Assembly: GCF_002979975.1 (NCBI RefSeq)
Contig: NZ_PCQD01000002.1
Coordinates: 310,001 to 374,000 of the forward strand
Direction: 5' to 3'
Source: Pseudomonas sp. MYb185
GTDB taxonomy: Bacteria; Pseudomonadota; Gammaproteobacteria; Pseudomonadales; Pseudomonadaceae
DNA length: 64,000 nucleotides
Both the position numbers and the translations under genes were made by a program. The number at the start of each line of letters is the position of its first letter. Position 1 is the first letter of the stretch. The notes under the pieces were generated by a model. It had not been told where the DNA came from and did not search any database. It worked only from the letters and a program-made list of their open reading frames with translations. Shown piece after piece: positions 1,250-40,137 of this stretch.

Positions 1250-2125
1250 TCAGAACGTCGGCAGGGGCAGACTGGCCATGCGCTCGGCACCGCCGTTGCG
1301 CTCGCAGTAGTCGGCTTCGCTGCAGTTGACATAGGTATCCAGGTAACGCTGCCAGCCGTTGTCTTCGCTGGCGCTGTCGCTGTAGTCCTTCAGGTGCTGC
1401 ATGTCCCAGCCGTAGGCCGGACCACAGGCGGTGGGGTGCGCACCCAGCGGCGCCTCGACTACACCGGTGACCATGGAACGCTCGAAGGTCGCAAAGCGCG
1501 CGGTGGCGGCATCCAGTTCCAGGCGCTCCTCGACCACCTCGGCGGAGACGAAGCACTGTTTGGAGGCGCGTGCCACATGGTGATCGAAGTACACGTCGTT
1601 ACCGGTGATCAGGGTGTTGCCCAAACGGTCGGCACGATTGACGTGGACAAAGGCCACATCAAGCTCCAGTGCCGGCATCGCCAGCAGCACTTCACCATCG
1701 GCATAGGGTGAGCTGATCAGTTTCAGCTCCGGATTATGGGTCAATACGTCGGTGGCCAGACCAGCGCGGGCCGGCAGGAACGGCAGGCGCATGGCAGCAG
1801 CCTTGAGCCCCCATTGGAACAGACCTTCATCCAGCTCCATGACATCCAGCGTCCCGGCTTCGCGGGCCTTGCGGAAATAGGGTTCCAGCGGAATGGCGTC
1901 CATGGTGGCGAAACCGAAGATCAGCTTCTTGACCTTGCCGGCGGCGCACAGCATGCCGACTTCCGGGCCGCCATAGGCGACTACCGTCAGGTCCTTCACG
2001 TCGCTGCGCAGGATCTCACGCACGATTGCCATTGGCTTGCGCCGTGGCCCCCAGCCCCCAAAACCGATGGTCATGCCATCGCGCAATTGGCCCACTGCAT
2101 CGGCCGCGGTCATCAGCTTGTTCAT
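1250..2125 (-). CDS. ipdA: CoA-transferase family alpha subunit, IpdA-like steroid ring-opening hydrolase
   Basis: This 291-residue protein has the glycine-rich N-terminal signature of CoA-transferase alpha subunits (DGMTIGFGGWGPRRKP, residues 16-31). It is the predicted partner of the IpdB-like protein encoded next. The ATG at 2125 overlaps the stop of the dioxygenase gene by 1 nt (TAATG) and is preceded by GGAGGAG, so translation is probably coupled. IpdAB acts on the CoA thioester left after rings A, B and D are removed. An upstream palindrome at 3092-3107 probably controls the whole four-gene unit. Confidence 0.82.
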   Translation of the reverse strand: MNKLMTAADAVGQLRDGMTIGFGGWGPRRKPMAIVREILRSDVKDLTVVAYGGPEVGMLCAAGKVKKLIFGFATMDAIPLEPYFRKAREAGTLDVMELDEGLFQWGLKAAAMRLPFLPARAGLATDVLTHNPELKLISSPYADGEVLLAMPALELDVAFVHVNRADRLGNTLITGNDVYFDHHVARASKQCFVSAEVVEERLELDAATARFATFERSMVTGVVEAPLGAHPTACGPAYGWDMQHLKDYSDSASEDNGWQRYLDTYVNCSEADYCERNGGAERMASLPLPTF

Positions 2126-3024
2126 TACTGCTCCTCCTGACGGCCAGCACCGAAATCGTGTCCCCAGATGCTGACCTTGGTGAATTCAAAGGCGGTGTGC
2201 TGGTCCCAGTCGACCTGCAGGCCACCCCAGCCATATTCCAGATCGAAACCGGAAGGGGTCTTCATGTAGAAGGACGTCATGCGGTCGTTGAGATGCTGGC
2301 CAAGGGTCGCCGACAGCGGCACGCCATGGGCCACGCGCCGGTCATGGGCGCGGCCGACCTCGGTCATCGAATCGACCTCGACCATCACGTGCACGCACTT
2401 GCTCGGCACCTCGTACTCGGCAATCGCCAGGCTGTGGTGCCGGGCATTGCCGCAGTGCAGGAAGTGGATACGCGTGGCAGGCGCGTCGGGGACGGGACGG
2501 AAATTGAAGATGTCGGAAATCTTGAAGCCCAGCACATCCTGGTAGAACGCCGCGCATTCATCGAAGTTGGGCGTCGGCAACACCGTATGGCCCAGTCCCA
2601 TGTCGCCGGTGAGGAAACGCGGTACGCCCTGCGGCGAGACAAAGGGCTCGCAGTCAGACAGATAACCCCAGGTCAGCTCATGCTGGTTGCCCGCAGGGTC
2701 CTGCAGCAGTGCGGCTTCGTTGACCTTGCGCTGAGCGCAGAACTCGGAATCTGCCAGCTGGTACTCGACACCGGTGGCGTCCAGCTTGGCCAGCATGGCG
2801 TCGAAGGCCGGCTTGCTGCCCAGCGACCAGCCCGAAGCCAGGTAGCGCTCCTCCGCACCTTCGACAACGAGCATACGGAAAGGACGGTCATCCATCTTGA
2901 TGTACAGCCCGCCGCCGGGTGCCGGGCTGGTCATCATGCCCAGCACATTCTCGGCATAGTGCTGCCACTTCTGCACATCGCCGATCTGCGCAACGAAATA
3001 GCTCAACGCTCGAATCTCACTCAT
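2125..3024 (-). CDS. hsaC: Type I extradiol ring-cleavage dioxygenase, HsaC/TesB-like
   Basis: This 299-residue, two-domain vicinal-oxygen-chelate protein fits the BphC/HsaC family. With the start at 3024 the iron ligands fall where expected: His146 (GLGHTV), His212 (CVHVMVEV) and Glu263 (DLEYG), with His197 as the likely active-site base. In steroid catabolism HsaC/TesB cleaves the aromatised ring A (3,4-DHSA) with O2 at the 4,5 bond. The start is set by a GAGGAG box 7 nt upstream; an in-frame ATG at 3039 lacks one. It is the first gene of a unit with ipdA, ipdB and the EchA20-like gene. The HsaD-like hydrolase for its product is at 17.4 kb. Confidence 0.9.
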   Translation of the reverse strand: MSEIRALSYFVAQIGDVQKWQHYAENVLGMMTSPAPGGGLYIKMDDRPFRMLVVEGAEERYLASGWSLGSKPAFDAMLAKLDATGVEYQLADSEFCAQRKVNEAALLQDPAGNQHELTWGYLSDCEPFVSPQGVPRFLTGDMGLGHTVLPTPNFDECAAFYQDVLGFKISDIFNFRPVPDAPATRIHFLHCGNARHHSLAIAEYEVPSKCVHVMVEVDSMTEVGRAHDRRVAHGVPLSATLGQHLNDRMTSFYMKTPSGFDLEYGWGGLQVDWDQHTAFEFTKVSIWGHDFGAGRQEEQ

Positions 3025-3091
3025 GCCGCCACTCCTCATTCAGGGCCTGTAAAGCATGAATGGATTGTTGCGCGCGGCCATGGCGCATTCA

Positions 3092-3209: not shown

Positions 3210-4148
3210 TTACATGTACAGGATCACCAGCTCATTGATCACCGCCGGGCGCTCCTGGCCGACGACGTGGATATTGCACTCCAGCACCAACTGGGTCCCA
3301 CGCGGCAGCGCCTCCACCGACTTGACCCGGGTGCGCGAATGCAACAGCGAACCAGCCGGTACCGGACTCGGAAAACGCAACCGTTCGGAGCCATAGTTGA
3401 CCATGTTGGTGAAGCCGGTGACCTCGAAGGCGAGCGGCACCTGCATACGTGACATCAGCACCTGCACCAGCGCACCGTGGGCGATGGTGCCGCCGAACGG
3501 GCTTTCCTTGCGGGCACGCTCGGGATCGGTGTGGATCCAGTAGTCGTCGCCGGACAGCGCGGCGAACTGGTTGATCAGCTCCTGGTCCACCAGGATCTGG
3601 TTGCTCCAGTCACTGAACTGATCAGAGACCAGCGCCTTCAGCGCGGCGATGTCCTTGACATCGATCTTCTGTCTGGCCGGCCCGGCATCCGCCGCTGGAG
3701 CGGGCGGCGCCTTGGGTACTTCGTCCCGCTGCTCCAACGCGACGTCAACGCCGGTATAACGCAGCAACACACTGCCATCGTCCCTGACCCGGGCCCGTAC
3801 CGGCTTGACTCGCATGCCCACCTCGATCTGCTCGGGGTCGAGGCCGATCAGGGTAGTGTTCATGCGCACCCCTTCATCCAGCTCCACCACCGCCAGGATC
3901 TGCGGCTCGGCGCTGGCGAATTCAGGCAGCGTCGGCACACGTGCCACGGTATAGGTGTACAGGGAGCCGGCCCCGGAAACCTCTTTCCAGGTCAGATCAT
4001 GTGACCAGCAATGGCTGCAATGGCGCCGCGGATAGAACACCCACTGCTGACAGCTGTTGCACTGCTGCAGCATGACTCGGCCATCCTTCAGGCCATCCCA
4101 GAAAGGTGCGGAAATCGCTGTCGGCAGCGGCATAGGTTTGTTGCTCAT
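3210..4148 (-). CDS. DUF35 (zinc ribbon/OB-fold)-MaoC fusion, predicted steroid side-chain enoyl-CoA hydratase
   Basis: This 312-residue protein has two domains. Residues 1-140 are DUF35, with a zinc ribbon of Cys30, Cys33, Cys44 and Cys47 followed by an OB-fold. A Pro/Ala-rich linker near 148-160 leads to a MaoC hotdog domain carrying the hydratase motif SGDDYWIH (catalytic Asp and His206 region) and the downstream AHG. In mycobacterial ChsH1-ChsH2 a MaoC hydratase and a DUF35 domain hand the hydrated side-chain thioester to the Ltp2 aldolase, and a thiolase-fold aldolase gene lies just upstream here. The start at 4148 is chosen because GGGAG sits 7 nt before it; a TTG at 4154 is also in frame. 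The domain order is the reverse of ChsH2. Confidence 0.82.
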   Translation of the reverse strand: MSNKPMPLPTAISAPFWDGLKDGRVMLQQCNSCQQWVFYPRRHCSHCWSHDLTWKEVSGAGSLYTYTVARVPTLPEFASAEPQILAVVELDEGVRMNTTLIGLDPEQIEVGMRVKPVRARVRDDGSVLLRYTGVDVALEQRDEVPKAPPAPAADAGPARQKIDVKDIAALKALVSDQFSDWSNQILVDQELINQFAALSGDDYWIHTDPERARKESPFGGTIAHGALVQVLMSRMQVPLAFEVTGFTNMVNYGSERLRFPSPVPAGSLLHSRTRVKSVEALPRGTQLVLECNIHVVGQERPAVINELVILYM

Positions 4149-4150
4149 GC

Positions 4151-5362
4151 TCAAGCTCCCTGAAGAATCAATGCGCCCTGCTCGCTCATGACACCACCTG
4201 TGCCAGAAACGAACACCTGATCGCAGACCTTGAGCTGGCGGTCACCGGCCTTGCCGGCCACCTGCTGATAGGCCTCGACCACCTGCGAGAAACCACCGGC
4301 TGAGCCGGCCTGACCGAAACTGAGCTGACCACCATGGGTATTCATCGGGAAATTGCCCTTGTAGGTCAGGTCGTTCTCCAGGATGAAACGCATGCCCTCG
4401 CCCTTGGCGCAGAAGCCGGCATCCTCCAGGCTGAGCAGCACGGTGATGGTGTAGCAGTCATAGATCTGCGCCGCCTGCACATCGGCGGGCTTGAGCCCGG
4501 CCATGGCGAAAGCACTGCGCGATGCCGGGCCGACCGGGGTCTCGGTCATGTCCGGCGAGTAACTGGGTGATTTGTAGCCCAGCCGCTCACCGAAACCGGT
4601 CACATAGGCCGGGCGTCCCTTGCTACGCATGGCCAGTTCCTTGGAGGCGACGATCACCGCCGCACCACCGGCCACCGGCATGACGATCTCGAGAATGTGC
4701 AATGGGTCGGCGACCATCTTGCTGTTGAGTACATCCTCTATGCTCAGGTTCTGACCACGGAAAATCGCATCCGGGTGGGCCTGGGCGTTGAAGCGCTGAT
4801 CCACGGCGATCTTCGCCATGGCCCGCTGGTCATAGCCATACTGCGCCGCATAGCGCTGGGCGATCATTGCGTAGCCGGTATTCTGCCCCATATGTCCGTA
4901 AGGCAGATCGAACTCGGCCTCCGGCGCACCGTACTGGGTGCTGTGGCCACCGAAACGCATGGCCCGGGCCATGGCCGAAGGGTCATCGTCCGGCCCGAAC
5001 GGTGCCATGCGCTGTGGAATCACGCAAAGCACCGCCTGGCAGATACCCAGCTCGATGGCGGCTGCCGCACGCCAGATCATGCCGACTGCGGTGGTGCCAC
5101 CCAGGTCGACCACCTCGGCGAAGTTGACCGCAATCCCCAGATACTCGGCAGCCATGGCTGGCACGAAACTGGAGGCTTCATGGAAATGCGGCCCATTGAT
5201 GCACAGGCCATCGATATCGCTGGCCTTGAGCCCCGCATCGGCCAATGCCTGCGCCGCCAGGTCCGCCACCTGCTCCAGATGGAACATCTGCGGCGCCGTG
5301 GCGTATTTTTCAGGCTTGTATTGTGCGGCGCCGACAATGGCGGCCGTCCCTTTCAGACCCAT
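4151..5362 (-). CDS. Thiolase-superfamily lipid-transfer protein, Ltp2/Sal-type steroid side-chain aldolase
   Basis: This 403-residue thiolase-fold protein belongs to the SCP-x/Ltp group. At the position where true thiolases carry the nucleophilic Cys it has DLGGTT (residues 87-91), so ordinary thiolysis is unlikely. The Ltp-type active-site parts are present: Tyr301 and Tyr304 in IYDCYT and NTHGG at 341-345. The Ltp2/Sal family performs a retro-aldol cleavage that removes the last side-chain carbons from the 17-hydroxy steroid CoA ester, needing a DUF35 partner. That partner is encoded 2 nt downstream. The start at 5362 follows GGAGG and fits the family better than an ATG at 5431. A degenerate operator lies 68 nt upstream. 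Confidence 0.85.
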   Translation of the reverse strand: MGLKGTAAIVGAAQYKPEKYATAPQMFHLEQVADLAAQALADAGLKASDIDGLCINGPHFHEASSFVPAMAAEYLGIAVNFAEVVDLGGTTAVGMIWRAAAAIELGICQAVLCVIPQRMAPFGPDDDPSAMARAMRFGGHSTQYGAPEAEFDLPYGHMGQNTGYAMIAQRYAAQYGYDQRAMAKIAVDQRFNAQAHPDAIFRGQNLSIEDVLNSKMVADPLHILEIVMPVAGGAAVIVASKELAMRSKGRPAYVTGFGERLGYKSPSYSPDMTETPVGPASRSAFAMAGLKPADVQAAQIYDCYTITVLLSLEDAGFCAKGEGMRFILENDLTYKGNFPMNTHGGQLSFGQAGSAGGFSQVVEAYQQVAGKAGDRQLKVCDQVFVSGTGGVMSEQGALILQGA

Positions 5363-5430
5363 GGTTGTCCTCCCATCAGGCGGTTGCACTCGGTTGCGTT
5401 TCATTGTCAGAGTCAGCCTGACCTGCTTCA

Positions 5431-5446
5431 TCGTCCATAAGGCCTA
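5431..5446 (-). promoter_or_regulatory. Steroid-island operator, degenerate copy b
   Basis: Read toward the aldolase gene, the site is TAGGCCTTATGGACGA, followed by TG. The right half is intact while the left half has diverged. It lies 68 nt before the aldolase start, at the same spacing as copies a, c and e, which is the main reason to accept it. It also lies upstream of the divergent gene at 5626. Confidence 0.5.
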
Positions 5447-20538: not shown

Positions 20539-21303
20539 TCATCTACCCCGGGCATAGAAATGCGGGTTGTCCAGGCCCGGTTTGCCGTAGCCCAGCGGCT
20601 CGTTCTGCAGGGTCAGTATCTGTCCACCGGCTGCCAGCAGCACCGCGTGGCCGGCGGCAATATCCCATTCCATGGTACGGCCCAGGCGCGGGTACAGGTC
20701 CGCTTCGCCAGCGGCCACCAGGCAGATCTTCAATGACGAACCGGCGCTTTTCAGCGAACGGACCTTGCGCCCGGCCAGAAAGGCATCCAGCGCCTGGGCA
20801 TCTCCATGGGACCGACTGGCCACCACCTCCAGCCCCTCGGACGAAGGTTCGCGGCATTCGATGGGCTTGCGCATACCAGCCTCCTCGACAAAAGCACCGC
20901 ACCCCCTGGCCCCGGCGAACAGGCGGCCCAACGCCGGAGCCAGTACCACCCCCAGTACAGGTTGGCCAGCTTCGATCAGGGCGATATTGACCGTGAACTC
21001 ACCGTTGCGACTGATGAACTCCTTGGTGCCATCGAGCGGATCCACCAGCCAGAAGCGCTGACCCACCTCGGGCACATGCCCCGCAGCGGCGGCCTCTTCG
21101 GAAATCACCGGATCGGCGGGCACGCACTGCTCCAGGGCCCGCAGGATCAGAGCCTCGGCCCGCTCGTCGGCCTCGGTCACCGGTGAAGCATCATCCTTGC
21201 CGCGCACTTCGAAATCGGAGTGATAGATCTGCAGCACCTGTTCACCGGCAACACGGGTGATATCGATCACCTGCTCAAGCAGCGCTGACATGGCTTCGTT
21301 CAT
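20539..21303 (-). CDS. cysQ: 3'(2'),5'-bisphosphate nucleotidase CysQ
   Basis: This 254-residue inositol-monophosphatase-family protein has the metal motif DPLDGTKEF near residue 87, the EEAAA acidic cluster before it and WDIAAGHAVL near 205. CysQ dephosphorylates PAP, the inhibitory by-product of PAPS use by PAPS reductase or sulfotransferases. It is divergent from the cysD unit. That places PAP removal beside PAPS synthesis and, 5 kb further on, a sulfotransferase. Confidence 0.92.
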   Translation of the reverse strand: MNEAMSALLEQVIDITRVAGEQVLQIYHSDFEVRGKDDASPVTEADERAEALILRALEQCVPADPVISEEAAAAGHVPEVGQRFWLVDPLDGTKEFISRNGEFTVNIALIEAGQPVLGVVLAPALGRLFAGARGCGAFVEEAGMRKPIECREPSSEGLEVVASRSHGDAQALDAFLAGRKVRSLKSAGSSLKICLVAAGEADLYPRLGRTMEWDIAAGHAVLLAAGGQILTLQNEPLGYGKPGLDNPHFYARGR

Positions 21304-21422
21304 AGGTTTCCCCTTTTTTTTCAGATTGGTCCAAACGGCCTATGCGTCTTTTTTCCCTACCCGCAAGAGTACAGGGACCGACTATCCCCCCAATCAGCAA
21401 TTGGATATTTAAAGGAGCGGTC

Positions 21423-22433
21423 ATGGCACGTGGCAACCGCCTGCCCATCGAGCAGCTCAATACTCTGCGCATCCAGGCCGTAAGGCTGCGCCTGGCGGGC
21501 AATACCCTGAAGACCATCAGTGCCGCCACCGGGCTGTCCTCGCCGACCATCATTGCCGCGCACAAGGCCTGGCAGAACGGTGGCTGGCAGGCGGTACCCA
21601 TCCGCGAGCGTGGCCGCAAGATGGGAGAAGGACGTACATTGAGCGCCGAGCAGGAGCTGGAGATGTATCAGACGCTGGTCGCCACCACGCCGGAGGCCCA
21701 TCAGTTGCCCCACCTGCTCTGGCAGCTCGACGCCATGCAGGCGCTGATCCATAAGCAGTATCGGATCACCATTCCCGACCGCACCGCGGCACACTACCTG
21801 CAACGCTGGCGGCTGAATGCCGAGCGGCCGGCCCGACGCATCGCCAACGCCCCCCTGAGCGTCCAGCGGTGGCACCAGAGCACCTATCAACAGATCGCCT
21901 CCCAGGCCCGGGAAGAAGGTGGTGAGATTTTCTGGGTCGACGATTTTGGCGCACCGAGCCCCGGCAAGAAGCTGAGGCATGGCGTACTCAGGGCCATGAG
22001 CAACCGCGGCAAGGTGCTCTGGCTACCCTACGATGGCGGCTTGCGTGCGCCCCATCTGGAGAACTTCTTCGACCGCCTGCAGCGCAGTACCGGGCGCAAG
22101 CTCTTCGCCCTGCTGTCGGGCATGCAATGGCAGCGTGCAGCCACCTTCAGCGCCTGGGCCAGCAAGCGCACCGAGCAATTGCAGCTGTTTCACCTGCCCG
22201 AAGCCACCGACATGCTGAACGGCGCCCAGCAGTTGGCCGAGGATATCCGTCACCACAGCCGACGCCCTGTGGACATGGGCAGCACAGGCGGAACAGAGCC
22301 ACCCGCCGGACCGCCCGACAATCCAATGCTGTTCATGCTGCAACGCATATTAAAACTTCAACTCGCGCATAGCTCGACGAATCAGCCCCGATACGCTGAG
22401 CGCCGACAACAACAAAAGTCGAAGGAAAACGCT
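21423..22433 (+). CDS. IS630-transposase-derived DNA-binding protein with lost catalytic residues, open into cysD
   Basis: The 337 codons from ATG 21423 (preceded by AAAGGAG) to the cysD ATG contain no stop, so the frame continues directly into CysD; the end given here is the last codon before cysD. Residues 15-60 form a helix-turn-helix ([15 protein letters not shown]) and 70-135 the second HTH-like segment typical of IS630 transposases. Residues 165-270 follow the IS630 DDE domain: the first acidic pair is kept (FWVDDFG, 173-174), but the expected VDN motif is LLSG (230-233) and the final LNPxE region is MLNGAQ. It therefore looks like a domesticated, catalytically dead transposase, perhaps a regulator. 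A low-complexity tail (285-337) leads to CysD. No terminal inverted repeats were seen. Confidence 0.65.
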
Positions 22434-23333
22434 ATGACGTTGACGCACCTGCAGAAACTGGAAGCCGAAAGCATCCAGGCCATGCGCGAAGTAGTGGCCG
22501 AGGCCGACAATCCGGTCATGCTGTACTCCATTGGCAAGGACAGCGCGGTCATGCTGCACCTGGCCATGAAGGCCTTCTACCCAGCCAAGCCGCCGTTCCC
22601 CCTGTTGCATGTCGATACCACCTGGAAATTCCAGGACATGTATCGCTTCCGCGATCAGATGGTGGCCAAACTGGGCCTGGAGCTGATCAGCCACGTCAAT
22701 CCCGACGGGCTGGCAATGGGCATCAGCCCGTTCAAGCACGGCTCGCAGATCCATACCGACATCATGAAGACCGAGGGTCTCAAACAGGCGCTGGATCAAT
22801 ACGGCTTCGATGCAGCCTTCGGTGGCGCACGTCGTGACGAGGAAAAATCCCGCGCCAAGGAGCGCATCTTCTCCTTCCGTTCCGACCAGCATCGCTGGGA
22901 CCCGAAGAACCAGCGACCGGAGCTGTGGCACCTGTACAACACCCGCAAGAACAAGGGTGAGTCGATCCGTGTATTCCCCCTGTCCAACTGGACCGAGCTG
23001 GACATCTGGCAGTACATCCATCTGGAAAACATTCCCATCGTTCCCCTGTATTTCGCCGCTCCGCGTCCGGTAGTCGAGCGCGACGGCATGCTGATCATGG
23101 TGGACGACGAACGCATGCCGCTGAACCCGGGCGAGGTCCCGATGCTGCGCAACGTGCGCTTCCGCACCCTGGGCTGCTATCCGTTGACCGGCGCGGTCGA
23201 GTCCGATGCCGACACCTTGCCGAAGATCATTCAGGAGATGCTGCTGACCCGCACCTCGGAGCGCCAGGGCCGAATGATCGACCATGACGCCGCCGCATCG
23301 ATGGAGAAGAAAAAACAAGAGGGGTATTTCTGA
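22434..23333 (+). CDS. cysD: Sulfate adenylyltransferase subunit 2
   Basis: This 299-residue protein has the size of E. coli CysD. It has the PP-loop motif YSIGKDSAV (31-39), the [12 protein letters not shown] segment and the C-terminal TSERQGR signature. With CysN it makes APS from ATP and sulfate. The start at 22434 has its own AAGGA box, so a normal CysD can be made even though the frame is open back to 21423 and a 636-residue fusion with the IS630-like protein is possible. The stop overlaps the cysNC start (TGATG). A sequence CATATTAAAA at about 22348 could serve as a -10 region for a cysD-proximal promoter; this is weak. Confidence 0.93.
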
Positions 23334-25237
23334 TGGCTCACGTATCCGACCTGATTGCCGACGATATCGAGGCATATCTCAAATCCCATGAACGCAAGAG
23401 CCTGTTGCGGTTCATTACCTGTGGCAGCGTCGACGACGGCAAGAGCACGCTGATCGGGCGCCTGCTGTATGAAGCCAAGATGCTCTTCGAGGATCAGCTG
23501 GACGCACTGGAAGCCGACTCGAAAAGGGTCGGCACCCAGGGCGGCGAACTGGACTTCGCCCTGCTGGTGGATGGCCTGGCAGCGGAGCGCGAACAGGGCA
23601 TCACCATCGATGTAGCCTATCGTTTCTTCTCTACCGACCGTCGCAAGTTCATCGTCGCCGACACACCCGGCCACGAGCAGTACACCCGGAACATGGTCAC
23701 TGGTGCCTCCACCGCCGATGTCGCCATCGTGATGATCGACGCCCGTCGCGGCGTGCTGACCCAATCCCGGCGTCATTCGTTCCTGGCCTCGCTGATCGGC
23801 ATTCGCAAGGTGGTGCTGGCGGTCAACAAGATGGATCTGATGGACTACTCGGAAAAGGTCTTCAACGAAATCGTCGAGGAATACCGCGAATTCGCCGGCA
23901 AGATCAACCTGCCCGAGATCACCGCCATCCCGATGTCGGCATTGCGGGGCGATAACATCACCGAGCGCACCGAGCATATGCCGTGGTACCGCGGCACCAC
24001 GCTGATGGGCTACCTGGAAACCGTCGAGATAGACGAGTCCCACCAGCAGAAGCTGCCCTTCCGCATGCCGGTGCAGTGGGTCAACCGCCCGAACCTGGAC
24101 TTCCGCGGCTTTGCCGGCACCGTCGCCGGCGGCGTGGTGCAACCGGGCGACCGTGTGCGTATTCTGCCAGCCGGCCGGGAAACCCATATAGCTCGTATCG
24201 TCACCCAGGATGGCGATCTGCAGCAGGCCGTGGCCGGCCAGTCGGTCACCCTGACCCTGAGCGACGAAGTGGATTGCAGCCGCGGCGATGTGATCGCCAC
24301 CGCCGACGAGCCGCCGAGCGTAGCCGACCAGTTCCAGGTCACACTGGTCTGGATGCATGAGCAGCCCATGCTCGGTGGCCGCCCGTACCTGATGAAGATC
24401 GGCGGCAAGACGATTCCGGTGACGCTGGCCGCGCCGAAGTACAAGATCAACGTCAACACCCTGGAGCACCTGGCCGCCAAGGAGCTGGCACTCAATGAAA
24501 TCGGGGTCTGCAACCTGTCGAGCAGCCAGCCGATCGCTTTCGACAGTTATCAGAGCAACCGCGAAACCGGCAGCTTCATCCTGATCGACCGTCTGAGCAA
24601 CGCCACGGTGGGCGCCGGCCTGATCGACTTCTCACTGCGCCGCTCGCAGAACATTCACATGCAGCATACCGATGTGAACAAGAAGGTACGTGCCGAGCAG
24701 TTGGGGCAGAAGCCGGTACTGCTGTGGTTCACCGGACTGTCCGGCGCAGGCAAGTCAGCCATCGCCAACCTGCTGGAAATCCGCCTGTACGCCCGCGGCC
24801 GCCATACCTACCTGCTCGATGGCGACAATGTGCGCCACGGCCTGAACCGCGACCTGGGCTTCACCGATGCCGACCGTGTGGAGAACATCCGCCGCGTCGC
24901 CGAGGTCGGCAAGCTGTTCGTCGATGCCGGCCTGATCACCCTGACCGCCTTCATCTCGCCGTTCCGCTCGGAACGGGAAATGGCCCGCCAGTTGCTGGGC
25001 GACGAGGCGTTTCTGGAAATCTTCATCGACACTCCGCTGGCGATAGCCGAAGAGCGCGATCCCAAGGGTCTGTACAAGAAGGTCCGGCGGGGCGAGTTGA
25101 AGAACTTCACCGGCATCGATTCTCCCTATGAAGCGCCGGTCAACCCGGACATTCATATCGAGACCACCCGGATGTCGCCCGAACAGGCCGTGGACAGGAT
25201 CATCGCCACCCTGATCGAGCGCGGTCACATCGAGTGA
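23333..25237 (+). CDS. cysNC: Bifunctional sulfate adenylyltransferase subunit 1/APS kinase
   Basis: This 634-residue fusion begins with the translation-factor-like GTPase CysN: G1 GSVDDGKST (31-39), DTPGHEQ, NKMD and beta-barrel domains to about residue 440. The C-terminal APS kinase domain has Walker A GLSGAGKS near 465 and LDGDNVRHGLNRDLGF after it. The GTPase drives APS formation with CysD; the kinase phosphorylates APS to PAPS. The fused form is common in Pseudomonas. PAPS feeds sulfite production, and here also the sulfotransferase encoded 1.2 kb downstream. Confidence 0.94.
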   Translation: MAHVSDLIADDIEAYLKSHERKSLLRFITCGSVDDGKSTLIGRLLYEAKMLFEDQLDALEADSKRVGTQGGELDFALLVDGLAAEREQGITIDVAYRFFSTDRRKFIVADTPGHEQYTRNMVTGASTADVAIVMIDARRGVLTQSRRHSFLASLIGIRKVVLAVNKMDLMDYSEKVFNEIVEEYREFAGKINLPEITAIPMSALRGDNITERTEHMPWYRGTTLMGYLETVEIDESHQQKLPFRMPVQWVNRPNLDFRGFAGTVAGGVVQPGDRVRILPAGRETHIARIVTQDGDLQQAVAGQSVTLTLSDEVDCSRGDVIATADEPPSVADQFQVTLVWMHEQPMLGGRPYLMKIGGKTIPVTLAAPKYKINVNTLEHLAAKELALNEIGVCNLSSSQPIAFDSYQSNRETGSFILIDRLSNATVGAGLIDFSLRRSQNIHMQHTDVNKKVRAEQLGQKPVLLWFTGLSGAGKSAIANLLEIRLYARGRHTYLLDGDNVRHGLNRDLGFTDADRVENIRRVAEVGKLFVDAGLITLTAFISPFRSEREMARQLLGDEAFLEIFIDTPLAIAEERDPKGLYKKVRRGELKNFTGIDSPYEAPVNPDIHIETTRMSPEQAVDRIIATLIERGHIE

Positions 25238-25274
25238 AAGCAGGCAGTCCTGCTGGAAAAACAGCAACAAGTTG

Positions 25275-25294
25275 AGGGCCTGTTCGCAGGCCCT
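25275..25294 (+). terminator. TTCG-loop hairpin after cysNC, probable weak terminator or processing site
   Basis: An 8-bp stem (AGGGCCTG/CAGGCCCT) closed by a TTCG tetraloop lies in the 76-nt gap between cysNC and the DUF1214 gene. A smaller inverted repeat (AGCAGG-CAGT-CCTGCT, 25239-25254) precedes it. No T-run follows, so read-through into the downstream operon is plausible. No promoter or operator copy is evident in the gap. Confidence 0.55.
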
Positions 25295-25313
25295 GCTAAC
25301 CCGGAGACAGACA

Positions 25314-26423
25314 ATGACAACAAATACCTCTCATCCCGCCCTGGTCAGCGGCCAGGCCTGGTCGGACTTCTGCGATAACCTCAAGCGCTGCGGCGAGCAG
25401 ATCCTCCGTCCGGAAACCCCGACCGACGCCGCCACCCGCGCCGAAGGCTTCCGCTACCTGACCCGCCTGCTGCGTATCGGCCTGGAAATGCATGTCGAGT
25501 TTGCCGACCCGGCATTTCCCGGATTCTTCAAGACCTCCCATGAAACCGCGAAGATCGGCGCGGACAACCCCGACAACCTGTATGAGTACGCACGCCTGGA
25601 CGGCAACCTGGAATACCGTATCAAGGGCAACCGTGGTTCGGTCTACTACCTCAGCTTCGGCACCCAGAAAGGCGGCTATGAAACCGACGGCAAGATGATC
25701 CAGACCGGTTTCATCGATGCCAGCACCCTGGAGACCGATCAGGACGGCAACTTCGAGATCGTCATCAGTCGCCACCCGCAACCGGGCAACTGGCTGAAGG
25801 TGGAACCGGCCAGCAACTCGGTACTGGTGCGCCAGACCTTCCTCGATCGCGACACGGAAGTACCGGCGCAGTTGTCCATCGAACGTATCGGCGCCGATGC
25901 CAAGCCCGGTCCACTGGACCCCGCCACTTTCGAACAGTCTCTGCAGCGTGTCGGCAGCTTCGTGGAAAACACCGCCCGGCTGTTCGCCGACTGGACGCAG
26001 AGCTACCTGGCGCACAGTAATCAGTTGCCTCCGGCCGACCAGGCCCTGTGCCAGTCGGTGGGTGGTGACCCGAATATCTACTACTACCACTCGCACTGGG
26101 CGCTGGCCGAAGACGAAGCGCTGGTGATCCATGTACAGAAGGTACCCGAATGCGATTTCTGGAACCTGCAGATCAACAACTACTGGATGGAGTCGCTGGA
26201 TTACCGCTACCACCGGATCTGCTTCAACAAGCACCAGGCCGAATATGACCAGGATGGCGGAGTCACCCTGGTGCTCAGCGAGCGCGACCCGGGGGTGGCC
26301 AACTGGCTGCAGACCGCCGGTATTCGCCAGGGCACGCTGTGCCTGCGCTGGGTCGGCGCCAGTCAGCAGTGCCACCCCACCACCCAGGTGGTCAAGATCG
26401 ACCAATTGCAGGAGGCAGTATGA
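25314..26423 (+). CDS. DUF1214 domain-containing protein
   Basis: This 369-residue protein without a signal peptide matches the DUF1214 type: a beta-rich C-terminal half with the Trp/Tyr-rich stretch IYYYHSHWALAEDEALV and FWNLQINNYWMESLDY, as in proteins often annotated beside steroid and terpene genes. No catalytic residues are established for the family. The ATG at 25314 follows GGAG; the frame is open to 25272. Its stop overlaps the sulfotransferase ATG (ATGA), so the two are coupled. It is the first gene of a seven-gene unit ending at a terminator at 30.6 kb. Confidence 0.78.
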   Translation: MTTNTSHPALVSGQAWSDFCDNLKRCGEQILRPETPTDAATRAEGFRYLTRLLRIGLEMHVEFADPAFPGFFKTSHETAKIGADNPDNLYEYARLDGNLEYRIKGNRGSVYYLSFGTQKGGYETDGKMIQTGFIDASTLETDQDGNFEIVISRHPQPGNWLKVEPASNSVLVRQTFLDRDTEVPAQLSIERIGADAKPGPLDPATFEQSLQRVGSFVENTARLFADWTQSYLAHSNQLPPADQALCQSVGGDPNIYYYHSHWALAEDEALVIHVQKVPECDFWNLQINNYWMESLDYRYHRICFNKHQAEYDQDGGVTLVLSERDPGVANWLQTAGIRQGTLCLRWVGASQQCHPTTQVVKIDQLQEAV

Positions 26424-27613
26424 ACATGACCACGCAAACCACACGCCAGGCGCTGGATATCGACCAGTTGCTCAGTGAGGCCAGCCAGCGGGCCAACGGA
26501 CTCAGTCACTTCGGCGATGACAATTATCGACAGGCCCTGGAGGTGCTGGTCGACGCACTGGATCGCGAAGCCAAGCTGTCGGATACCGGCCGCTACCTGA
26601 TGCGCGAGCGGCTGGTCGGCCAACTGTTCAACCGGCTGGTGATGGAGGACTACCTGCGCAGGTTCCCGGAAATCACCCGGATAACCATCGATGATCCGCT
26701 GGTCATCGTCGGTCTGCCGCGCACCGGTACTACCATGCTGCAGCGCACCTTGGCAGTGGACCCACGCTTCCACTCCGCCGCCTGGTGGGAAACCCGCTAC
26801 CCGGCACCGCTGGAAGGTGAAACCCTGGCCGCGCCCGAGCAACGCATCAGCCGGGCCAAGGCCGAGGTGCAACAGACCATCGAGGCCATCCCGCAGATCC
26901 TCTCGATTCATCCGTTCGATGCCCTGCTCTGCGATGAGGAATTCATGCTCATGGAGCATTCGTTCCTGTGTGCGATGGACGCCTACGCCGACGTACCCAG
27001 CTATACCCGGTGGCTCGACCAGCAGGACCAGCGCCCCGTCTACACCCAGCTGAAGAAGATGCTGCAGTTCCTGCAGTGGCAGAAGCAGCAACGCGGAGAA
27101 ACCGGCGGCCAGCGCTGGCTGCTCAAGGCACCCCAGCACCTGCATACCATCGACCTGCTGCTGGAGGTGTTTCCCCGGGCACAGGTGATCCTGACCCACC
27201 GCGAACCGGCGCAGACCATTCCCTCGATGGCCAGCATGGCACACACCCTGTGGCAGATGTACAGCGATCAGCCCGATCCCAGATCCGCCGGCATCCAGTG
27301 GAACCGTCGCATGGCCCGGGGTATTCGCCACACCATGCAGGTGCGCGACCAGCATCCCCTCGACCGTTTCCTGGACATCCAGTTCGCCGACACCGTGGCC
27401 AGGCCGATGGAGGTGCTGGAGCGCGTGTACAGCTTCGCCGGCATGCCCTTCACCGACAAGGCGCGCGCCGATGCCGAACAATGGCTGGCGAAGAATGGCC
27501 GGGAAAAACGTGCCAGCCACGACTACAGCCTGGAGCGCTTCGGTTTGAACGAAGCCCAGATGACCCGCGACTACATGGAATATCGCGCCCGCCATCTGAG
27601 CGCCAATCACTGA
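26420..27613 (+). CDS. PAPS-dependent sulfotransferase family protein
   Basis: This 397-residue cytoplasmic protein has the 5'-phosphosulfate loop GLPRTGTT (98-105), a helix following it and the later LTHREPAQTIPS segment corresponding to the 3'-phosphate-binding region (Arg and Ser). It belongs to the Sulfotransfer_3 type. Sulfotransferases move sulfate from PAPS to a hydroxyl or amine, giving PAP. Immediately upstream genes supply PAPS (cysD, cysNC) and remove PAP (cysQ). The start at 26420 follows AGGAGG and overlaps the DUF1214 stop. The acceptor is unknown; a steroid hydroxyl is an attractive guess given the flanking island. Confidence 0.83.
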   Translation: MNMTTQTTRQALDIDQLLSEASQRANGLSHFGDDNYRQALEVLVDALDREAKLSDTGRYLMRERLVGQLFNRLVMEDYLRRFPEITRITIDDPLVIVGLPRTGTTMLQRTLAVDPRFHSAAWWETRYPAPLEGETLAAPEQRISRAKAEVQQTIEAIPQILSIHPFDALLCDEEFMLMEHSFLCAMDAYADVPSYTRWLDQQDQRPVYTQLKKMLQFLQWQKQQRGETGGQRWLLKAPQHLHTIDLLLEVFPRAQVILTHREPAQTIPSMASMAHTLWQMYSDQPDPRSAGIQWNRRMARGIRHTMQVRDQHPLDRFLDIQFADTVARPMEVLERVYSFAGMPFTDKARADAEQWLAKNGREKRASHDYSLERFGLNEAQMTRDYMEYRARHLSANH

Positions 27614-30171: not shown

Positions 30172-30627
30172 ATGCAAGAGCTGTATGACATCGAGCAGAT
30201 CAAGCAACTCAAGGCCCGTTACTTTCGCGGCATCGATACTTGTAATCTGGAACTGCTGCGCGGCGTTCTGGCGCAGGATGCGCTGATCACTTTTGACAGC
30301 CCGACCTATCAGTTCGAGATCAATGGCATGAACGAAGCCATGGATTTCTATGCCAGCTCCTTCACCAACCGCCGCTTCGGTATGCACAACGGCCATACTC
30401 CCGAAATCAGCGTCAATGGCGATGAAGCCGCTGGCCTGTGGTACCTCAACGATCTGTTCATCAACCTGGATGAGGGCACCATCCTGCACGGCAGTGCCAT
30501 CTACGAAGACCGCTATATCAAGGTCGACGGCCAGTGGCGGATCCTGCGTACCGGCTACAAGCGCTTGCTGGAAATGATCCAGCCGCTGGATAGCCAGTGC
30601 AATATCACCTCAAAGCCGATCAACTGA
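30172..30627 (+). CDS. SnoaL-like/NTF2-fold protein, paralogue 2
   Basis: This 151-residue protein shares with the protein at 28370 the segments IKQLKARYFR, IDTCNL, HNGHTPEI, HGSAIY and ITSKPIN, so the two arose by duplication of a single gene around the SRPBCC-SDR pair. Differences cluster in the middle (FTNRRFGM against FTATRLAT), which may reflect different ligands or a heterodimer. It is the last gene of the unit and is followed by a strong terminator. Confidence 0.78.
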   Translation: MQELYDIEQIKQLKARYFRGIDTCNLELLRGVLAQDALITFDSPTYQFEINGMNEAMDFYASSFTNRRFGMHNGHTPEISVNGDEAAGLWYLNDLFINLDEGTILHGSAIYEDRYIKVDGQWRILRTGYKRLLEMIQPLDSQCNITSKPIN

Positions 30628-30642
30628 CCCCTGCCATATCTG

Positions 30643-30671
30643 AACGGCCCGCTATGCGGGCCGTTTTTTTT
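30643..30671 (+). terminator. Rho-independent terminator of the sulfotransferase unit
   Basis: A GC stem (ACGGCCCGC/GCGGGCCGT) with a TAT loop is followed by eight T residues. The T-run overlaps the stop codon of the convergent MFS gene, so the two transcription units end tail to tail with no spacer. Confidence 0.92.
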
Positions 30672-32247: not shown

Positions 32248-32291
32248 CGGACCCTCGATTGCGTGATGTCAGGATGGAAAAACGGCTGGGA

Positions 32292-33083: not shown

Positions 33084-33105
33084 AGTGATCTCACCCTTAA
33101 GATGT

Positions 33106-34776
33106 TCAAGCGAGTCCTACGGCCTGTCTGATTTGTGGTTTCTGCAGTTTGCCCGTCGCGTTGCGCGGCAGCGGCTGATCGGTGAACCAGATACGGCTGG
33201 GTAGTTTGAAGGCCGCCAGCCGACCGGCCATGAAGCTGCGCAAATCCTGCTCGCCGATGTCATCACGCACATGCACTACCAGCGCCACGCACTCGCCCAT
33301 TTCCGCATCTGGCAAGGCAAAGGCAGCAGCCTCGACCACAGCTGCATGGGCACCGGCGCATTGCTCGACTTCCAGCGCGGAAATATTCTCGCCACCACGA
33401 ATGATGATGTCCTTGATCCGGCCGGTGACGTAGAGCATGCCATGCTCATCGAGATAGCCGACATCACCGCTGTACAGCCAGCCATTCTGTAATGCCTCGC
33501 CGGTCTCCTCGTCACGCTGCCAATAACCGTCCATCAGGGTGACTGAACGCAACCAGATCGGCCCTTCCTGACCTGCAGGCAAGGGTTGCTCCGGTGACTC
33601 GCCAATAACCAGGTCCACCAATGGCAATGGCCAACCGGCACTGCCAGGGAAATGCACGAACTGTTCTCCGGAGTGCGCAGCACCTATGCCGTTGCATTCG
33701 GTCATGCCGAAACCGGCACCCACCATGGCGTTGGGCTTGACCGCAAGCAGTCGCTCCAACAACACCTCGGAGGACGCCCCGCCGCCCATGCCGAGGGCGA
33801 ACAGGCTGGCGGTAGCCGGGCTGTCGAAACGTGGATGGTTGATCAGTTGCTGCATCATCACCGGCGCACCGTTGAACTGGGTGCAACGCTCAGTTTCGAT
33901 CAGCCGCAACGCTTCTTCAACATCCCATTTGTACATGATCACCATGCGGCGGCCGTTGCGCAGCATGCTGAGAAACTGCGATTGCAAGCCGCTGACATGG
34001 AACAGCGGAAAACTGATCAATGCTGTGGGTTGCAGGCCGGACTCCATGATCGGTTTGATCCGCTCTGGCGACGTCATGCCAGCGAAGGCCCCCTGGTAGT
34101 CCAGCGCAAACAGCGCCTGGGCAACAGCTCTATGGCTGGACACCACGCCCTTGGCACGACTGGTGGTGCCGGAGGTATAAAGCACCTGGGCGATATCATC
34201 CGGTTTGGGCTGAATCAACTGCATGGGAGCCAGTTCGGCATCCATCAAGGCCTGCCAGGCATACTGGCCTGACGAGGGCGTCTCATCGACCAATACCAAC
34301 TGGATATCTGCCACGTTATCGCGCAGGTGCTGATAACGCTCCGGATCACAAATCAGCACACCGGCTCCGGCATCTCCGATAGCGTGCAACAGCTCATCGC
34401 GCAGCCCCCAGCTATTCAGCGGGACCGGGACGGCACCAGCCTGAACGCAGGCAGTGAAGGCGATCATCCATTCCGGGCGGTTGCGCATGGCGATCGCTAC
34501 CCGCTCACCGGGACGGAGACCAAGGATCTGCTGCAGCGCAGCGGTCATGCGGTCGGCAGCCGTGTAGAACTCGGCAAAGCTGTAGCGTTGGTCACACCAC
34601 AGCAGAAACGGCGCATCACCGTGGCGGCGACCAGCCTGAATGGCTTCGGTAAGAGTCGCCGGGGCATTGATGAAGTATTTGCGCCCTTGTTGGTCTTCAC
34701 CCAGGGCAAAGGGTGATTGGGCGCTCAGCAATTGCTGGTTACACGTCCGCCATTGATCCACGAGACTGGTGTGCAT
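33106..34776 (-). CDS. Acyl-CoA synthetase (AMP-forming)
   Basis: This 556-residue ANL-family ligase has the P-loop YTSGTTSRAKGVVSSH near 185, the GMTECNG motif near 358 and the C-terminal hinge and core GRIKDIIIRGGENIS near 460, with the catalytic Lys in ATGKLQK at the end. It is closer to FadD3/FadD13-type ligases than to the FATP-type ligase at 10.7 kb. A steroid side-chain or CD-ring propionate acid is a likely substrate. The start at 34776 follows AGAGGT; the frame is open to 34809. Confidence 0.87.
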   Translation of the reverse strand: MHTSLVDQWRTCNQQLLSAQSPFALGEDQQGRKYFINAPATLTEAIQAGRRHGDAPFLLWCDQRYSFAEFYTAADRMTAALQQILGLRPGERVAIAMRNRPEWMIAFTACVQAGAVPVPLNSWGLRDELLHAIGDAGAGVLICDPERYQHLRDNVADIQLVLVDETPSSGQYAWQALMDAELAPMQLIQPKPDDIAQVLYTSGTTSRAKGVVSSHRAVAQALFALDYQGAFAGMTSPERIKPIMESGLQPTALISFPLFHVSGLQSQFLSMLRNGRRMVIMYKWDVEEALRLIETERCTQFNGAPVMMQQLINHPRFDSPATASLFALGMGGGASSEVLLERLLAVKPNAMVGAGFGMTECNGIGAAHSGEQFVHFPGSAGWPLPLVDLVIGESPEQPLPAGQEGPIWLRSVTLMDGYWQRDEETGEALQNGWLYSGDVGYLDEHGMLYVTGRIKDIIIRGGENISALEVEQCAGAHAAVVEAAAFALPDAEMGECVALVVHVRDDIGEQDLRSFMAGRLAAFKLPSRIWFTDQPLPRNATGKLQKPQIRQAVGLA

Positions 34777-34817
34777 GGTTACCTCTTTGTAATTTTTGTA
34801 GTTCGCCACGGGCCGTT

Positions 34818-35948
34818 TCAGGCGCTGCGGTTGTCGCTGTATCGCTGGCAGTGGTAATCACTGTTGCCCAGCTGGTTCTGTGCTACGCGCATACGCTTGA
34901 GAAACAGCCCCAGATCATATTCATCGGTAACGCCAATGCCACCGTGCATCTGTATCGCCTCGTTACTGACCCGCTGGGCCATCTGGCCGGCCTTCCACTT
35001 GGCCAGGCTGACCAGACGGCGACGCTCACGGTCGTCGCTGCCTGGACGATCGAGCTGGGCAAAGGCCCCCATCACGCTGCTACGCGCCAGTTGCAGGTCG
35101 GTATACAGGCGGGCCGCACGGTGCTGCAGAGCCTGGAAGCTGCCGATCGGGACGCCGAACTGGACCCGGGTCTTGAGGTATTCGATGGTCATCTGGAAGG
35201 CGGTTTCGGCCATGCCCAGCAGCTCTGCCGCCAGGCAACTGCGCCCACGATCCAGCACCAGATCAAGCGCCTCGGCAGCATCGGCACTACCCAGCCGGCT
35301 ATCAGGCTCCAGCCGCACCTTGTGCAAGCGCAGCGCCGCCATATTGCGCGCATCGATCATCTGCCGCGCTTCAAGCTGCACACCAGGCGTGCCGGCGCGG
35401 ACCAGGAACACCCCGCAGCCGCCGTCGGCCTCACGCGCCACCACCAGCCAGCCGTCCGCCTCGCGAGCGTCGGCCACCCAGAGCTTCTCACCATCGAGCA
35501 GCCAGCCGTCGGCATCGGCCTGGGCGCTGAGCGCGATATCTTCCGGTGCGTGGCGGGCCGACTCTTCCAGCGCCAGCGCCAGGCGCAGCTCACCACTGAT
35601 CAGTTGCGGCAGCCATTGCTGGCGCTGTCCGGCAGTGCCGAGCTGCTCGATCAGCCCACCGCACAACACCACGCTACCCAGTAGTGGCGAGGCGCTCAGA
35701 TGGCGCCCCATTTCCTCGAACAGGGGTGCAAAGCCGGCAAAGCCGAAGTCCAGCCCGCCATCCTCTTCGCTGAACGCCACCGCGCTCCAGCCCAGCTCCA
35801 GCATGCCCTGCCAGACGTCGGCGTCGTAGCCAGCGGCAATACCCTGGTCGCGTATGGCCCGTTGCACGGAAACCGGCGAGCGCGCGGACAGGAAGTCGCG
35901 TGCGCTGTCCTGCAGTTGCAGTTGATCTTCGTTGTAAACCAGACTCAC
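34818..35948 (-). CDS. Acyl-CoA dehydrogenase family protein, divergent subunit
   Basis: This 376-residue protein has the ACAD fold. Its FAD-contact motif, usually FTEPxxGSD, is degenerate (LALEESARHAPEDI near 130), while the C-terminal part keeps RVQFGVPIGSFQALQH and IQMHGGIGVTDEYDL. It pairs with the canonical ACAD encoded immediately upstream. Steroid-degrading bacteria use heterotetrameric ACADs (for example ChsE1-ChsE2, ChsE4-ChsE5) in which active-site parts are split between two subunits, so this pair probably forms such an enzyme. The GTG start at 35948 sits inside the intergenic GAGGAG context; the frame is open to 35996. Confidence 0.85.
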   Translation of the reverse strand: MSLVYNEDQLQLQDSARDFLSARSPVSVQRAIRDQGIAAGYDADVWQGMLELGWSAVAFSEEDGGLDFGFAGFAPLFEEMGRHLSASPLLGSVVLCGGLIEQLGTAGQRQQWLPQLISGELRLALALEESARHAPEDIALSAQADADGWLLDGEKLWVADAREADGWLVVAREADGGCGVFLVRAGTPGVQLEARQMIDARNMAALRLHKVRLEPDSRLGSADAAEALDLVLDRGRSCLAAELLGMAETAFQMTIEYLKTRVQFGVPIGSFQALQHRAARLYTDLQLARSSVMGAFAQLDRPGSDDRERRRLVSLAKWKAGQMAQRVSNEAIQMHGGIGVTDEYDLGLFLKRMRVAQNQLGNSDYHCQRYSDNRSA

Positions 35949-35958
35949 GGCACTCTCC

Positions 35959-37149
35959 TCACTTGGCTTCCGGCAGGCCAAGCACGCGCTTGGCAATCAC
36001 GTTCAACTGCACTTCCGATGAACCACCGGCAATGGTCTGGGCATAGCTCATCAACCAGGCACCGGTCATATCCAGTTCACGCTGGCTGAAGCCCTCACCT
36101 TCCCAGCCCAGGGCCTGGTTGCCCATGATCTCCAGCAGCAGCTCGAACTTGGTTCGCTCCTGCTCGCTGTGTACCAGCTTGGCGATTGCCATCAGTCCCG
36201 AGGCGTCCTGCCGGGCGCGCAGGGTCTCGGCAATACGGCGACTGGTCAGACTGAAGGCTTCTTCATCCATCAGGCAGGTTACCGCCCTCTGCTGCAGGGC
36301 GATCTCAGCCACCGTTTGCGGCTTATCCAGATACTGCTTGAGGAGTTCACCCAGGTCGAAATGGGTGGGCAGCGCCGTTTCGCTGAACTTCGACATGGCC
36401 CGGCGCTCATGCTGCAGCAAGGCCTTGCCCAGTGTCCAGCCACCGTTGAGTTCACCGATCAGTTGCGCACGCGGCACCCGCACGTTGTCGAAGAACACCT
36501 GGCAGAAGCTCGACTTGCCGCTGATCAGGTCGATCGGTGCGACGCTCACTCCCGGCGAGGTCATGTCCAGCACGATCAGGCTGATGCCAGCCTGCTTCGG
36601 CTCCATCGGCCCGGTACGGACCAGGGCATACATCCAGTCGGATTTGTTGCCATAGGAGGTCCAGATCTTGGTGCCATTGATGACGAAATCGTCGCCATCG
36701 ATGACGGCCGAGGTGCGCAGACTGGCCAGGTCGGAGCCCGCATTGGGCTCGGAAAAACCCTGACACCAGCGAATCTCGCCCCGGGCCATGGGTGGCAGGA
36801 AGCGCTGCTTCTGCTCTTCACTGGCGAACTCCAGCAGGACCGGACCGAGCATCCAGATGCCCAGATTGATCTGGGGTGGGCGACAATGCAGGCGGCGCAT
36901 TTCCGCTTCGAGAACAGCCAGTTGCTGGGGATTCAACCCGCCACCGCCGTATTCCACCGGCCAGTCGGGGCAGAACCAGCCCTTGTCGCGCATGCGTTCG
37001 AACCACAGGCGCTGGTCCTCATGCTGGAATTCGACCGTACGTCCGCCCCAGACCATCTCATCGGACGGCATGGGCGTGCGCATGGATGCCGGACAGTTGG
37101 CCTCGAGCCAGGCTCGGGTTTCCTGGCGAAATGCTTCTAGCTCGTTCAT
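35959..37149 (-). CDS. Acyl-CoA dehydrogenase, canonical subunit
   Basis: This 396-residue ACAD has the FAD motif CQGFSEPNAGSDLASL near 136-150, GTKIWTSYG after it and the C-terminal TIAGGSSEVQLNVIAKRVLGLP. It dehydrogenates an acyl-CoA at the alpha-beta bond, passing electrons to ETF. With the divergent ACAD 10 nt downstream it probably forms an alpha2-beta2 steroid side-chain dehydrogenase. It is the first gene of the unit running to the MFS gene at 30.7 kb, and operator copy g lies 86 nt upstream. Confidence 0.9.
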   Translation of the reverse strand: MNELEAFRQETRAWLEANCPASMRTPMPSDEMVWGGRTVEFQHEDQRLWFERMRDKGWFCPDWPVEYGGGGLNPQQLAVLEAEMRRLHCRPPQINLGIWMLGPVLLEFASEEQKQRFLPPMARGEIRWCQGFSEPNAGSDLASLRTSAVIDGDDFVINGTKIWTSYGNKSDWMYALVRTGPMEPKQAGISLIVLDMTSPGVSVAPIDLISGKSSFCQVFFDNVRVPRAQLIGELNGGWTLGKALLQHERRAMSKFSETALPTHFDLGELLKQYLDKPQTVAEIALQQRAVTCLMDEEAFSLTSRRIAETLRARQDASGLMAIAKLVHSEQERTKFELLLEIMGNQALGWEGEGFSQRELDMTGAWLMSYAQTIAGGSSEVQLNVIAKRVLGLPEAK

Positions 37150-37235
37150 CGTGTTACCTGCATGTTGTTCTTACCAGACCGCGAACCCGGCCTTGATTAT
37201 GCGTTGACTCTAACGGCAGCAACCGCGCGACGACG

Positions 37236-37251
37236 TCGTCCGGATGGACGA
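37236..37251 (-). promoter_or_regulatory. Steroid-island operator, copy g
   Basis: Read toward the acyl-CoA dehydrogenase gene, the site is TCGTCCATCCGGACGA. The outer six bases of each arm are complementary (TCGTCC/GGACGA). The flank is CG rather than the TG seen in the other copies. It lies 86 nt before the start codon and just beyond the stop of the KstD-like gene. Confidence 0.68.
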
Positions 37252-37269
37252 TTTCCCGCGCGGCATCGG

Positions 37270-38748: not shown

Positions 38749-38783
38749 TGCACAGTCCTTTCATCTTGTTGTTATCGAGCTAT

Positions 38784-40019: not shown

Positions 40020-40137
40020 GCTGGTCTCCATAACGAATGGACCGGTAGCCGGCCCGACCATGCCCAGCGGCAGCGGCTCGGCCAGGACTGTCCGGCGTCA
40101 ATTGCATCGATTCTGGAAAGCTCGTCGATGGGCGTCA

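Follow-up and report, generated by a model that had tools for sequence, protein, structure and literature searches.

A DUF35-MaoC fusion beside a thiolase-fold aldolase gene is very probably Shy, a known bile-acid side-chain hydratase, in a genome that also carries a ChsH2-type set

Introduction

A 64,000-nucleotide stretch of DNA from Pseudomonas sp. MYb185 (hereafter, the window) carries a gene in which a DUF35 region is fused to a MaoC hydratase in the order opposite to that of mycobacterial ChsH2, which raises the question of whether the product is a rearranged ChsH2, with a ChsH1-like partner encoded elsewhere, or an enzyme of another kind. The reading made from the sequence alone that drew attention to the gene (the sequence-only reading) implied that this order is new. 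The same architecture is published for the hydratase Shy, which, according to PMC11321319, has one catalytic MaoC domain with a His/Asp dyad at its C terminus and DUF35 at its N terminus. In that account, shy follows sal and has no further MaoC gene near it, the aldolase Sal is bound by the DUF35 of Shy, and ShyMaoC, a two-site homodimer, prefers C5 side chains. The structure of the Sal-ShyDUF35 complex and a mechanism of Sal involving Tyr302 and Cys304 are given in PMC12329534; Shy1/Sal1 and Shy2/Sal2 are tabulated in PMC8399759, and PMC12502768 assigns propionyl removal to a ChsH2-type set (ORF40-44) and lists ORF54/55 as sal1/shy1 homologs.

Results

Domain order and reality of the fusion

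The features of the locus are collected in Table 1. Pfam matched zf-ChsH2 (residues 17-52, 2.2e-14) and OB_ChsH2_C (54-117, 8.7e-21) in the N-terminal part of the 312-residue protein and MaoC_dehydratas at residues 182-279 (2e-17), and the described order, zinc ribbon and OB domain first and MaoC last, is thereby borne out. The open reading frame list starts the fusion at TTG 4154, and homologs fit the ATG at 4148; with the aldolase frame ending at 4151, the spacing of 2 nt reported between the two genes is also correct. A phmmer search of the PDB matched the MaoC half to 8vwr_A (Comamonas testosteroni ShyMaoC, 1.3e-64) and the DUF35 half to 9myr_B (Sal-ShyDUF35 complex, 4.3e-42), with 98/153 (64%) and 69/128 (54%) aligned residues identical to C. 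testosteroni Shy (CtShy), respectively; the DUF35 half is also related to the DUF35 of ChsH2 (6ok1). A model of the fusion predicted from 30 sequences (mean pLDDT 77.2, pTM 0.58) shows two domains and has 8vwr, 9myr and 6ok1 as its top PDB folds. Its inter-domain stretch is less confident (mean pLDDT 75 at 141-150 and 66 at 151-160), a short central helix, the element that opens the steroid cleft in Shy, is modelled at 225-234, and pLDDT falls below 50 at the MaoC catalytic segment (201-213 and 215-225).

Table 1. Features of the window and of the ChsH set on the same contig. Window features carry window positions and ChsH-set features positions on contig 12; shy and sal are named after their very probable orthologs.
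Feature	Location	Strand	Basis or remark
shy: DUF35-MaoC fusion, 312 aa	3210..4148	-	Pfam; PDB matches; fold search
Zinc ribbon zf-ChsH2, residues 17-52, C4 motif C-x2-C-x10-C-x2-C	3993..4100	-	Pfam and motif
OB_ChsH2_C, OB-fold half of DUF35, residues 54-117	3798..3989	-	Pfam
DUF35-MaoC linker, about residues 134-159, Pro/Ala rich	3672..3749	-	Sequence; bounds from PDB alignments
MaoC hot-dog domain, residues 160-312, Asp201/His206/Gly225	3213..3671	-	PDB alignment, residue check, model
sal: thiolase-fold retro-aldolase	4151..5431	-	9myr_A 2.6e-186; residue check
YDCY motif of Sal (CtSal Tyr302, Cys304)	4451..4462	-	Alignment; PMC12329534
HsaC/BphC-like extradiol dioxygenase, downstream of shy	2125..3039	-	NCBIfam matches below curated cut-offs
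CoA-transferase subunit	1250..2125	-	Pfam CoA_trans
Acyl-CoA synthetase and two adjacent acyl-CoA dehydrogenases	33106..37149	-	Pfam
Acyl-CoA dehydrogenase of ChsH set	contig 12, 246129-247295		
Ltp2-like aldolase with YDHF motif	contig 12, 247306-248484		
ChsH1-like MaoC protein	contig 12, 248498-248959 as listed		
Second acyl-CoA dehydrogenase of ChsH set	contig 12, 248889 to about 250025		
ChsH2-like protein, 346 aa	contig 12, 250039-251079		Dehydratase domain first (32-175), DUF35 last (231-331)

A frame or assembly artefact was considered as the source of the fusion and rejected, the same full-length frame being found in each of the 80 best of 168 confirmed relatives, all of them uninterrupted fusions of the same order with sal upstream. 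Neither chance nor assembly explains the fusion, since full-length matches recur among these 80 relatives and, within the window's family, in 32 of 398 genomes. The family count comes from a genome search at E <= 1e-50, which likewise found matches in 2 of 369 genomes of the class (the window's own genome is included in both), in 2/399 of the order and 9/299 of the family of genome G620, and in 1/26 of the family of genome G1007; these draws overlap. All matches are full-length fusions except that of genome G1248 (locus L110, 1276-2100), a Shy-like MaoC domain with neither DUF35 nor an adjacent sal, possibly a stand-alone relative of the hydratase domain. The counts leave out loci L094-L100.

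Catalytic residues and the neighbouring aldolase

We aligned 91 Shy rows, namely the window protein, 80 loci (L007-L086) and L101-L110. The sequence-only reading had named, as grounds for its own refutation, a ChsH1-like partner in the cluster combined with an inactive MaoC domain, and the residues point the other way: the catalytic Asp201 and His206 and the oxyanion-hole Gly225 are present in the window protein and, together with Ser233 and Tyr252, invariant in 91/91 rows. The window aldolase shares 270 of 404 aligned residues with C. testosteroni Sal (CtSal, 9myr_A) and carries the YDCY motif as well as Gln161, Gln347, Gln352 and Gly391. In the wider alignment, Tyr302, Asp303, Cys304, Tyr305, Gln161, Tyr165, Gln347, Gln352 and Gly391 occur in 89 of the 90 Sal rows, the 90th being gapped there. 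All catalytic residues named in PMC11321319 and PMC12329534 are thus kept by the window pair. Some substrate contacts of CtShy are replaced in the window protein (Ala232 by Met, Ile237 by Val, Met289 by Leu and Leu291 by Cys), and in the aldolase Arg216 of CtSal is replaced by Lys and Thr355 by Ser. For sal, the true start is probably not the listed 5431 but the ATG at 5362 (MGLKG...), which aligns with MGLQG... of 9myr_A.

The gene sal stands directly upstream of shy in 89 of 90 loci (L007-L086 and L101-L110), at a gap of -4 to 11 nt, and a homolog of the downstream dioxygenase lies in the fetched flank of at least 31 of the best 80 relatives (of 168). Next to the dioxygenase gene is that of the CoA-transferase subunit, which we take to be IpdA-like. 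Farther away, the acyl-CoA synthetase and the two acyl-CoA dehydrogenases could plausibly, judging from position, supply the activation and dehydrogenation steps ahead of Shy. They belong to a larger region (30172-40061) in which Pfam recognises a SnoaL-like protein, an MFS transporter, an SDR, the CoA synthetase, the two acyl-CoA dehydrogenases, an FAD_binding_2 protein (presumably KstD-like) and a homolog of Old Yellow Enzyme; together these could plausibly form a block for the C5 side chain and the A ring. Positions 20539 to 27613, amid steroid-type catabolic genes, group a gene of the inositol-monophosphatase family with those of a PAPS-reductase-family protein that has a winged-helix region at its N terminus, of a CysN/CysC-type fusion joining GTPase to APS kinase, and of a sulfotransferase (Sulfotransfer_3), possibly a unit for PAPS supply and sulfation.

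Search for a ChsH1 partner and a second set in the same genome

The observation that no separate ChsH1-like partner gene is visible near the fusion withstood a search of the whole window. All 50 predicted reading frames, picked by codon-position GC bias, were compared with Pfam (10 of them only to E 1e-10), and a MaoC match was obtained for one, shy itself, with no other MaoC gene seen in the window. Searching the window by tblastn with five MaoC/DUF35 queries also gave a significant match at shy only; the ChsH1-like query, too distant to find even shy (best E 0.57), is a weak probe alone. A ChsH1 partner inside the window was therefore rejected on both searches. The traits of a ChsH2, namely an N-terminal, non-catalytic MaoC domain, a C-terminal DUF35 and ChsH1 in the same operon, are absent from the window fusion.

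Outside the window, the nearest other MaoC gene found on the same contig is PhaJ/Rv0130-like (297734-298204) and some 15 kb away from shy; a ChsH1/ChsH2/Ltp2 set lies at a distance of about 62 kb from shy (Table 1). Its ChsH2-like protein has Tyr at the catalytic His position (NPLYT) and shows the dehydratase-first order, so both fusion orders coexist in one genome. The contrast drawn between the window fusion and ChsH2 is correct. Since this set is present, the reversed-order Shy does not replace ChsH2 here, and by analogy with C. testosteroni we infer that it serves another side-chain cycle than the ChsH set.

These findings also bear on whether the fusion might be a domain-swapped ChsH2-type subunit, acting on C3 side chains with a ChsH1-like or other MaoC protein from another part of the genome. 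Such a subunit would fit the relationship of the DUF35 half to that of ChsH2 (6ok1) and the presence of a ChsH1-like and a PhaJ/Rv0130-like gene on the contig. However, both residues of the Asp/His dyad are present in the window MaoC domain, where ChsH2 has Tyr in place of the His (PMC11321319), the ChsH1-like gene already has its own ChsH2 (NPLYT) and YDHF-bearing Ltp2, and CtShyMaoC is about 1000-fold less active on a C3 substrate (PMC11321319). On the dyad and the separate ChsH1/ChsH2/Ltp2 set, we rejected the swapped subunit as extremely improbable.

Many of the best 80 relatives (of 168) come from Pseudomonas species, including genomes titled Pseudomonas fluorescens or Pseudomonas putida, and the presence of the pair in so many of the latter led us to consider a non-steroid role, which the pair may have in those genomes. 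For the window, this is opposed by KshA, encoded at 287868-288923 (KshA_C 3.8e-66), and by the ChsH1/ChsH2/Ltp2 set with its two acyl-CoA dehydrogenases. Among these 80, Halopseudomonas xiamenensis, H. formosensis and Pseudomonas saudimassiliensis come nearest of the named relatives, so the window's genome very probably belongs to Halopseudomonas, for which our literature search on steroid degradation found no paper.

Variation of the zinc finger

According to PMC12329534, the Cys3His1 finger of CtShy reshapes the steroid pocket of Sal, is proposed to favour bile acids, and has a zinc-binding His that is conserved among Shys. For CtSal, a kcat/Km ratio of 260 between bile-acid and 3-beta-hydroxy-chol-5-ene C5 substrates is reported. 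The window zinc ribbon is C4, with Gln at the position of this His, and lacks the C3H1 finger. Among the 90 fusion rows, 57 have a C4 finger plus His at the aligned position, 26 (the window included) C4 without it, six C3H1, and one, L106, an ambiguous finger one residue longer. These frequencies are no unbiased census, because similarity to the window governed the ranking of 80 loci and the other 10 belong to two families. Contrary to the conservation statement in PMC12329534, the zinc-binding His is thus missing at the aligned position from 26 of the 90 fusions. All six C3H1 fusions belong to one family (f109), and in a quick tree (SH-aLRT only, midpoint root, finger columns omitted, L110 left out, L102 on a long branch) they form with L106 and CtShy one group of eight (SH-aLRT 96) whose seven surveyed rows are all f109. 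From this, C3H1 looks like a derived feature of limited spread in Shys, and because 83/90 fusions are C4 we do not treat C3H1 as Shy-defining. A limited literature check did not find the C4/C3H1 split among Shys in print.

It could be argued that the window protein is a Shy-family member whose steroid range is shifted by the C4 finger, e.g., towards flatter rings, which is compatible with its identification as Shy and changes only the substrate. The C4 finger of the window and of the great majority of fusions, the restriction of C3H1 to six rows of one family beside one ambiguous row, and the selectivity proposed for the C3H1 finger (PMC12329534) all speak for such a shift; against it, the window Sal keeps His59, which according to a proposal in PMC12329534 would collide with planar rings, and Azoarcus sp. 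Aa7 (L053), which grows on cholic acid according to PMC8399759, also has a C4 finger with the extra His. Given the biased sample and the retained His59, a substrate change is a possibility, in our estimate an unlikely one. Returning to the family as a whole, we offer tentatively, and with considerable doubt, the view that Shys commonly use an ordinary C4 ribbon, that C3H1 is a local derived trait of the Comamonas side, and that the window pair gains bile-acid selectivity otherwise or accepts other rings.

Discussion

We herein describe a fusion gene that is very probably, from its sequence, an ortholog of shy, the already characterised bile-acid side-chain hydratase, and whose neighbour is sal. 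The sequence itself shows the domains and their order, the residues, the pairing of the genes and the presence of a ChsH set alongside them, and we are highly confident that the window pair acts as Shy and Sal, performing C5 side-chain hydration and then retro-aldol cleavage, while the C3 cycle is left to the separate ChsH set. The chemistry, the complex, the oligomeric state and the substrates of both sets are taken from the C. testosteroni orthologs. By this analogy, the C-terminal MaoC domain of Shy would form a homodimer with two active sites, in which Asp201 and His206 would add water to the delta-22 enoyl-CoA of a C5 side-chain steroid, e.g., a bile acid. The N-terminal DUF35 would bind the Sal dimer, whose Tyr302 and Cys304 would convert the hydrated product to acetyl-CoA and a C22 aldehyde by a retro-aldol reaction, Shy and Sal being presumably tethered without rigid docking. 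The second cycle, on the C3 side chain, would fall to the separate ChsH1/ChsH2/Ltp2 set, with its ChsH2 in the mycobacterial order.

The sequence-only reading had further proposed that the domain order may alter how the hydratase docks to the aldolase, and the C. testosteroni ortholog lends this no support. DUF35 binds the aldolase in both ChsH2 and Shy, and, as reported in PMC12329534, the MaoC domain of C. testosteroni Shy sits on a disordered, flexible linker of 26 residues in an AlphaFold3 model, while a trapping assay intercepted 93% of the hydrated product outside the complex, with no significant channelling. The order is ordinary for the Shy family, and for the ortholog the literature already covers the architecture and the complex as well as the absence of channelling. 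As a discovery the locus therefore carries little weight, being a known enzyme that was correctly observed; its value lies in placing Shy/Sal in a Halopseudomonas genome (very probably), in showing both fusion orders there, and in making natural C4-finger variants available for testing the published explanation of bile-acid selectivity.

Among known systems, the PaaZ/PhaJ MaoC hydratases, the closest relatives of the Shy MaoC domain according to PMC11321319, resemble Shy in being homodimeric and in their Asp/His dyad but have no DUF35, a longer central helix and smaller substrates. ChsH1-ChsH2-Ltp2 (of Mycobacterium tuberculosis, and ORF40/42/43 of C. testosteroni) likewise connects, through DUF35, a MaoC hydratase with an aldolase of the thiolase fold; unlike the window Shy, it carries MaoC ahead of DUF35, depends on the catalytic ChsH1 and acts on C3 side chains. 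As described in PMC8399759, Shy1/Sal1 of Stutzerimonas stutzeri Chol1 is alike in gene pair, cholate side-chain step and C-terminal hot-dog domain, and strain K1 (L026), titled S. stutzeri, has the same architecture as the window with a C4 finger plus His. The closest parallel in structure is Shy of C. testosteroni KF-1 (8vwr/9myr_B), which shares with the window the N-terminal DUF35, the C-terminal catalytic MaoC domain, the adjacent sal and a surrounding with no other MaoC gene in view, and from which the window protein differs in sequence (64% identity in MaoC, 54% in DUF35), in its C4 rather than C3H1 finger and in some substrate contacts.
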